This document shows positions 21,898 to 63,393 of a DNA stretch of 64,000 nucleotides, in pieces. Source of the DNA: Clostridia bacterium (GTDB taxonomy: Bacteria > Bacillota > Clostridia > Christensenellales > CAG-917); NCBI GenBank assembly GCA_017461985.1, contig JAFTSA010000008.1, forward strand, positions 124,001-188,000, given 5' to 3'. A program made the position numbers and the translations under genes. Below the pieces are notes generated by a model, which saw nothing but the letters and a program-made list of their open reading frames with translations, had not been told where the DNA came from and did no database searches. Positions within the stretch are counted from its first letter, which is position 1. Each line of letters opens with the position of its first letter.

Positions 21898-22010
21898 GGA
21901 AGTGCCATATCCGGCGAAGCGGGAGCGAAAATTGCACCGCAAGCATCTGCTTTTCGTCCGTGGACACCCCCCGTTCCATCGGCACTTAACGCGCAAAGTT
22001 CTACACTTCC
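21898..22010 (-). promoter_or_regulatory. Tetrahydrofolate (THF) riboswitch
   Basis: Leftward RNA with P1 formed by GGAAGTG (22010-22004) and CACTTCC (21904-21898). The conserved THF-I core GTAGAACTTTGCGCGTTAAG follows P1 and GCGGTGCAATTTTCGC precedes the 3' side. It matches the family known to sit ahead of folate transport and synthesis genes in Bacillota. The folC ribosome site lies just below P1, so translational control is likely; no terminator stem is evident. About 113 bases, slightly long for the class because of an enlarged internal arm. Confidence 0.88.
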
Positions 22011-38857: not shown

Positions 38858-38930
38858 CACAGATTTTGTCACAATCATTAACAAAATTGTATTTTTTCTG
38901 CCAGTGAAAATAGGACTCGTAGGCATTTAT

Positions 38931-38977
38931 GCCGTAATAGTGAGGCGGGTGAGTTTGCTCATTCAGCCGAACGCCAC
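38931..38977. repeat. Dispersed repeat B, copy 1
   Basis: About 47 bases with core CGTAATAGTGAGGCGGGTGA, recurring with about a quarter of the positions changed at 63159-63203. The following region 38978-39132 holds further short palindromes (ACACACA-CTT-TGTGTGT, GGTGG-TGTAAA-CCACC) and no gene. Confidence 0.6.
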
Positions 38978-39135
38978 TTATGACTAGAGGTCATACACAC
39001 ACTTTGTGTGTGGGGGTGGTGTAAACCACCCTGTTTGAGTCTAATTGTCGACACAAATGAGAGACAATAAGTCGGACAACACAAGTTGCCGTCTTCTTTC
39101 TGCCAGTGGCTCTCTCACCAAACGCACTGCTCAAT

Positions 39136-39318
39136 CACGGCTCCGCCGTGTATGAAATCATTGGAAACAATGTATGCAATCAAAACATGGTTTTGTATGG
39201 CATCAAACCGAACGGCATATCACATACACGCAAGCGTGATTACATACAATGCTTTGCATTGATGGCATACCAATCCTTCGGTTTGGATAAAAAAAATCTC
39301 GTCCTTGCGAACGAGATT
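39136..39318. repeat. Hairpin array, copy 1 (eight short hairpins with 8-nt spacers)
   Basis: Consecutive stem-loops at 39136-39150, 39159-39172, 39181-39195, 39204-39226 (degenerate), 39227-39238, 39247-39261, 39270-39286 and 39295-39318. Six of seven gaps are 8 bases: TATGAAAT, TATGCAAT, TATGGCAT, then ATTACATA, ATGGCATA, ATAAAAAA. In the first half the spacers read TATGnnAT on the top strand, in the second half on the bottom strand. The last hairpin doubles as the tRNA-Val terminator. A second copy lies at 62936-63119 with stems kept and loops changed. Confidence 0.85.
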
Positions 39319-39324
39319 GTTTTT

Positions 39325-39401
39325 TGGTGGAGACAATAAGACTCGAACTTATGACCTCTACGATGTCAACGTAGCGCTCTAACCAACTGGGCTATGCCTC
39401 C
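39325..39401 (-). tRNA. tRNA-Val (anticodon GAC)
   Basis: A 77-base cloverleaf with encoded CCA. Acceptor GGAGGCA pairs with TGTCTCC, the anticodon stem CTACG/CGTAG encloses TTGACAT (anticodon GAC) and the T arm contains GTTCGAGTC. Intact; the hairpin array begins seven bases below its CCA end. Confidence 0.95.
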
Positions 39402-62921: not shown

Positions 62922-62935
62922 TGTGCAAATTAAAT

Positions 62936-63119
62936 CACGGCAAAGCCGTGTATGAAATCATTGTGAAACAATGCATGCAATCAAAACGGAGTTTTGTATG
63001 GCATCAAGCCAAACTAAACTATTCCATGCACGCTTGCGTGATTACATACAATGCTTTGCATTGATGACATGCCACTCCTTCGGCTTGGATAAAAAAATCT
63101 CGTCCTTGCGAACGAGATT
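62936..63119. repeat. Hairpin array, copy 2
   Basis: Same order as the array at 39136: stems at 62936-62950, 62959-62973, 62982-62996, 63005-63027 (degenerate), 63029-63040, 63049-63063, 63072-63088 and 63096-63119. Stem sequences of five hairpins are unchanged while loops differ (TCC to AAA, GAAA to TGAAA, ATG to GGA). Spacers TATGAAAT, CATGCAAT, TATGGCAT, ATTACATA and ATGACATG are again 8 bases. Next to it lies a truncated tRNA-Val 3' end. Confidence 0.85.
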
Positions 63120-63120
63120 T

Positions 63121-63143
63121 TTTTGGTGGACACTACTGACTCG
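63121..63143 (-). repeat. Truncated tRNA-Val 3'-end copy
   Basis: 18 bases (63121-63138) identical to the end of tRNA-Val(UAC) at 63314-63331, then ACTCG after one missing base, and nothing beyond. It sits directly beside the second hairpin array. Confidence 0.75.
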
Positions 63144-63158
63144 TAGCAAGTGAAACGC

Positions 63159-63316: not shown

Positions 63317-63393
63317 TGGTGGACACTACTGGACTCGAACCAGTGACCCCCTGCTTGTAAGGCAGGTGCTCTAACCAACTGAGCTAAGCGTCC
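63317..63393 (-). tRNA. tRNA-Val (anticodon TAC)
   Basis: A 77-base cloverleaf with encoded CCA. Acceptor GGACGCT pairs with AGTGTCC, the anticodon stem CCTGC/GCAGG encloses CTTACAA (anticodon UAC) and the T arm has GGTTCGAGTCC. Intact. Confidence 0.96.

Follow-up and report, generated by a model that had tools for sequence, protein, structure and literature searches.

Hairpin arrays at tRNA 3' ends of gut Clostridia as the probable cis-acting part of an IVP-type selfish element

An ordered array of short hairpins located beside a tRNA-Val gene, within the 64,000-nt stretch of Clostridia DNA analysed here (the window), is probably the cis-acting part of an IVP-type selfish element whose targets are tRNA 3' ends, and the two copies in the window are probably non-autonomous. 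The arrays share a defined anatomy, are present in several copies in this genome, are placed 3' of tRNAs, are linked to genes for the protein IVP, carry a repeated word that is co-inherited with the IVP subfamily, and are present at sites where a congener lacks them.

Read outwards on the minus strand from tRNA-Val(GAC) (39325–39401, identified with ARAGORN and Rfam), the gene that carries element 1 at its 3' end, the order of parts is CCA, an intrinsic terminator, hairpins with three TATGNMAT words, a centre, and three inverted words. Terminator and hairpin array together form the whole of element 1 (39132–39324, minus strand), the bounds of which were taken from an alignment with a congener. 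We count the terminator hairpin (39289–39324, minus strand, inverted repeat I7) as part of the element because this comparison places the variable block at 39132–39324; its stems are common to copies at different tRNAs, and it is included in the tandem unit of locus L142. The minus strand continues with hairpin H1 (39270–39286), whose 5' arm and loop have a second partner in the centre, giving helix P1, word s1 (TATGCCAT, 39262–39269), hairpin H2 (39247–39261), word s2 (TATGTAAT, 39239–39246), hairpin H3 (39227–39238) and word s3 (TATGTGAT, 39219–39226), whose sixth position is not M, unlike the TATGNMAT consensus. The centre (39204–39213, minus strand) is the 3' arm of helix P1, with 39204–39212 forming a 9-bp perfect complement of 39277–39285. 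The other half is in the opposite orientation (plus strand) and comprises word s4 (TATGGCAT, 39196–39203), hairpin H5 (39181–39195), word s5 (TATGCAAT, 39173–39180), hairpin H6 (39159–39172), word s6 (TATGAAAT, 39151–39158) and hairpin H7 (39136–39150), the distal end of the array.

The preliminary description of this segment, a row of hairpins spaced by 8-nt words, was confirmed at these positions. The two-word pattern (up to 2 mismatches) has 7 matches in the window compared with 0.05 expected, six of them spread over both halves of copy 1 and copy 2, and the fold of the copy 1 segment beats 200 of 200 shuffles (z -4.7). The mirror polarity of the words was borne out as well: on the plus strand they start as TATGnnAT at 39151, 39173 and 39196 and as ATnnCATA at 39219, 39239 and 39262. 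Seven or eight hairpins had been counted; seven stand beside the terminator, and the eighth (39289–39324) is that terminator of tRNA-Val, though it belongs to the element. The supposed degenerate fourth hairpin was correctly located but supplies the 3' arm of a long-range helix (39204–39212/39277–39285) that covaries in relatives.

Among the matches listed, the 241 inter-word hairpins comprise 153 distinct sequences. Flush stems of 4 bp or more are found in 86% of these 153 sequences as opposed to 2.7% after letter shuffling; hairpin sequences thus vary while pairing is kept, and random controls seldom yield arrays of this regularity. Helix P1 covaries: in 39 sequences it is 96% paired with 32 double-changed cells, which are sequences and not events and in which two lineages dominate, and 0 of 500 shuffles scored as high, whereas controls slid along the sequence were less than 50% paired. 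All four combinations occur at its two covarying positions. Hairpin H1 next to P1 is also kept, and therefore one strand has two partners. The hairpin loops are polar: in the half next to the tRNA most of them end in a purine, e.g. C(GNA)G, and in the distal half most end in a pyrimidine (42:6 versus 2:40). Since this polarity flips together with that of the words, the whole unit of word and hairpin is inverted between the halves. C(GNA)G loops form unusually stable DNA mini-hairpins. This inverted layout of words and polar hairpins looks more like a pair of transposon ends than like a transcribed RNA. A conserved trunk formed by left words pairing with right ones was considered and rejected, the excess being weak (NN complementarity 0.33 versus 0.23 shuffled).

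The second array copy in the window (62933–63090, minus strand) shows 87% identity across the final 198 nt of the query (array and terminator) and has the same order of parts. Its terminator (63091–63126, minus strand) is nearly identical to that of copy 1 and is adjoined by a decayed, displaced tRNA-Val 3' end (63125–63147, minus strand), with an intact tRNA-Val(TAC) at 63317–63393. The whole genome (G000, 1.41 Mb) contains five full arrays and one remnant, all located 3' of tRNA genes or of decayed or displaced tRNA ends. Each of the five full arrays has both halves and comes after a terminator; they are found at tRNA-Val(GAC), the decayed tRNA-Val end, tRNA-Cys, tRNA-Met and tRNA-Leu. A covariance model built from 39 relatives recovered all five as well as the remnant beside tRNA-Glu. 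With a gapped pattern we scanned 84,980 species and obtained at least 118 stretches, a set selected by word and hence biased to TATGNMAT; most derive from gut Clostridia MAGs and have perfect hairpins between the words. Hairpin-bearing relatives are present on at least 100 contigs of gut Clostridia, so that the further copies which the preliminary description had proposed to look for exist both in this genome and in relatives. Within the host family, matches to the covariance model place the array in 1 of 36 genomes. About 13 pattern matches that came from other phyla or had no hairpins were excluded as unrelated repeats, and four matches on viral contigs lie within tandem repeats and are not arrays of the TATGNMAT-hairpin kind.

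An IVP gene, a small ORF of roughly 116–135 aa, directly follows the array in about 14 of the 75 oriented copies among the matches listed; most array copies have no IVP gene. The IVP of G000 matches PF05635 (23S_rRNA_IVP, E 8e-19) and TIGR02436, and has a solved relative, 2rld, with five chains (E 3e-12). No IVP gene is located beside either copy in the window, and one is present at a sister copy in the same genome (L013). At L142, units of terminator, array and IVP gene are repeated in tandem, and in some elements the IVP gene lies between the two halves of the array. IVP genes were also sampled independently in relatives, the class and the phylum. Chains of at least 3 hairpins occur upstream in 35 of 146 IVP loci, a set that includes 18 found via the word pattern, compared with 14 of 711 control windows (Fisher 3e-18). 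Inverted repeats between the flanks are present in 39 of the 146 versus 0 of 150; one or the other feature was found in 69 loci and neither in about half. Among 130 IVP genes, a count that leaves the pattern-found loci out, 34 have a tRNA on the same strand within 600 nt upstream, none has one on the opposite strand, and 4 and 2 have one downstream. In near relatives 3 of 13 IVP genes have no hairpin array, and a scan of viral contigs found no IVP relative. In Bacteroidota we noticed a hairpin-free form, a Bernardetia plasmid (L315) with about 15 tandem TGATTAG heptamers before the IVP gene and inverted ones after it. Two CRISPR surveys list IVP as CRISPR-associated (PMC10910872, PMC3936711); word arrays miscalled as CRISPR are a possible, if speculative, reason for this listing.

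The same architecture has been catalogued as RNA. Gut-1 RNA (Rfam RF01706) was listed in 2010 from human gut sequence only and without an assigned role (PMC2864571). Its model matches one half of several array elements (L020, L027, L195, L311, L312), and no Rfam model including RF01706 matches window positions 39050–39330 up to E 1. Of 245 genomes of the class, IVP is present in 38 of the 44 with Gut-1 and in 40 of the 201 without (p 9e-17), and 13 of 29 Gut-1 loci are found immediately 3' of a tRNA, behind a terminator. Gut-1 and the array are alike in having a long-range helix around short hairpins with a repeated word as spacer. They differ in that Gut-1 spans one half only of the array element, and in that the array of the window has the word TATGNMAT, turns words and loops the other way round in the half next to the tRNA, and no longer has a fourth hairpin. 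A human gut contig deposited as phage (L311) carries tRNA-Arg, a terminator, a Gut-1 array and an IVP gene in a row.

Given the covariation of P1 and the naming of Gut-1 as an RNA, a function of the array as RNA, offered in the preliminary description as a processed RNA, has to be taken as a real rival. According to this explanation it would be a structured non-coding RNA or a leader of the IVP mRNA, made by read-through of the tRNA terminator or from a separate promoter, and bound by IVP for autoregulation or in an RNP. The 0 of 500 shuffles that equal the double changes of P1 would suit an RNA as well, and so would the IVP genes that sometimes directly follow the array. However, an intrinsic terminator stands between tRNA and array; in the right half the inversion takes in both the units and the polarity of their loops, for which one transcribed strand would have no need; the NN letters of the words in the two halves are only weakly complementary; and in some elements the IVP gene is located between the array halves. 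On balance we regard the RNA explanation as rather unlikely.

The location of the arrays in relation to tRNA genes agrees with the selfish-element reading. Among the matches listed, 39 of 75 oriented copies have a tRNA on the same strand within 150 nt upstream. About half of the copies are without an intact adjoining tRNA, and many of the remaining oriented copies have a tRNA 3' end upstream that is displaced from its gene or decayed. In 12 copies located 90–420 nt from the tRNA, the intervening stretch matches the 3' end of that same tRNA (mean score 18.7 versus 9.1 shuffled). The placement is also found in sets that were not picked by word pattern, namely in 9 of 17 copies found by the model, in the Gut-1 matches mentioned above and in the 34 of 130 IVP genes with a tRNA upstream. 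At the tRNA-Val(GAC) locus the congener G002 is identical through the tRNA ...TCTCCACC (up to CCACC) and again from AGCAGTGCG; between these flanks it carries a different terminator and a short element. At the tRNA-Met locus it has another IVP element where G000 has the array. From the differences at these two sites it follows that gain, loss or replacement affects terminator and array together, precisely at the tRNA 3' end. Terminator stems are moreover common to copies beside different tRNAs, e.g. Leu, Gln and Tyr.

Several further observations concern these regions. Upstream of the array, window positions 38906–39071 contain additional partial copies of the 3' end of tRNA-Val in direct and inverted orientation (GAGACAATAAG, TAGAGGTCATA). 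These belong to a different short element, homologues of which adjoin tRNAs in L016, L017, L018 and L019. In L045, L057, L103, L112, L123 and L142, inserts of about 150–200 nt with a terminator separate the tRNA from its displaced 3' end, and in several of them parts of that tRNA recur in inverted orientation, which looks like the outcome of fold-back template switching. An IVP array with the word AGCTAAAT follows the tmRNA gene in L194, so tmRNA ends may be targets too. Elsewhere in the window a THF riboswitch is located at 21915–22010 (70.6 bits).

Displaced tRNA 3' ends adjoining the arrays would also be expected if the array were the att or arm-site region left by an ordinary integrative element, that is, of a tyrosine-recombinase element targeting tRNA T-loops. 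We consider such a remnant improbable: the tandem-duplicating unit at L142 consists of terminator, array and IVP gene only, and neither an integrase nor cargo was noticed, in incidental reading, beside the copies that we inspected.

The selfish-element reading further gains from the association between words and proteins. Arrays tend to carry a different word depending on the IVP subfamily, among them TATGNMAT, TATATCAT, AGCTAAAT, ATGAAAT, GTTATAT, GCGATAT and AATGATGTT besides others. When IVPs from different host families are compared, pairs with the same word show a mean identity of 69% versus 50%, a difference reached in 0 of 1000 permutations; a weakness of this test is that the words came from an automatic ranking and were entered by hand. 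In 30 of 37 cases the closest IVP from another host family has the same word. Two other statistics were discarded as over-permissive because neither separated usefully from the null, namely the short word found most often in IVP flanks and word-hairpin-word triplets (null mean 1 for the latter). The co-inheritance of word and IVP subfamily suggests, on sequence grounds, that IVP putatively reads the word. We regard as very unlikely a host-encoded DNA-binding array with IVP as an incidental neighbour, e.g. one for chromosome organisation at tRNA genes, which the strand-symmetric multi-site layout and the tRNA association would fit, but which is at odds with a word that changes with the IVP subfamily across host families, with the absence of the array from most of the family and with Gut-1 tracking IVP.

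Taken as a selfish element, the full unit would consist of a terminator, six 8-nt words among mini-hairpins in two inverted clusters, and then the IVP gene, which is absent from most copies, both of those in the window included. IVP, a four-helix bundle whose solved relative forms pentameric rings, would bind the repeated word/hairpin units and build a nucleoprotein complex on the element, and a host enzyme would place new copies at the tRNA 3' end. We infer both that DNA, and not RNA, is the substrate and that the element transposes. To our knowledge IVP has no catalytic activity, and thus the model includes no enzyme to move the element. Of the interpretations offered in the preliminary description, a non-autonomous mobile element and a protein-binding array for TATGnnAT fit best and are partly supported, by evidence that went beyond its view: all copies in this genome lie 3' of a tRNA or a decayed tRNA end, relatives of the array are linked to IVP genes, the terminator is within the unit, and the word differs by IVP subfamily.

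More tentatively, IVPs may be sequence-specific binders with one predicted word per subfamily, and arrays and IVP together a widespread class of recombinase-less selfish elements at the ends of structural RNA genes (tRNA, tmRNA, rRNA). If this is true, the class would account both for where the 23S rRNA intervening sequences (IVS) come from and for Gut-1, an orphan RNA. What rRNA intervening sequences and IVP/S23p do, and how they arose, has been an open question for more than 25 years (PMC4990558), and the arrays tie this problem to Gut-1. Furthermore, matched pairs of word and protein make binding testable by swapping arrays between subfamilies.

IVP, IVS and Gut-1 are each known separately. 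In the open papers that we searched, a coverage that stops short of most subscription journals and preprints, we found no account that describes the arrays or connects them with IVP and with tRNA ends, and this connection appears to be undescribed there. Of the features of the class proposed here, the window array has the repeated word in inverted clusters, and the window copies do not include the IVP gene. REP/BIME and IS200/IS605-type hairpin elements are short palindromes repeated in intergenic DNA, with possible recognition as single strands; the array differs from them in its unrelated stems, its ordered layout of seven hairpins and its associated protein. A conserved stem sequence as in REP/BIME is not present, given the diversity of the inter-word hairpins. 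A CRISPR is not supported: what repeats is an 8-nt word, palindromes make up the variable parts, and the two halves are in inverted orientation. The preliminary description had likewise seen no match to a known CRISPR or REP/BIME pattern.

Avd, the accessory protein of diversity-generating retroelements, belongs to a family homologous to IVP (PMC10053308). A search of G000 (98.5% complete) for the reverse transcriptase PF00078 gave no match, which sets the array apart from such retroelements and makes a retro route in cis unlikely here. An IVP relative from Xanthomonas is a pentamer according to PMC4990558 (after Lin et al. 2006), and the IVS of Coxiella has heptamers (PMC4990558). At L188, IVP is located inside a 23S rRNA gene (recognised by eye) and flanked by tandem words that are inverted on the other side. 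Compared with such 23S rRNA IVS, the arrays are situated 3' of tRNAs and not inside rRNA, in the window 3' of tRNA-Val genes; their words are interleaved with hairpins, both halves lie upstream of the IVP gene, and most copies are gene-less. What the two have in common is an IVP gene, short tandem words that are inverted on the other side, and insertion at a structural RNA gene.
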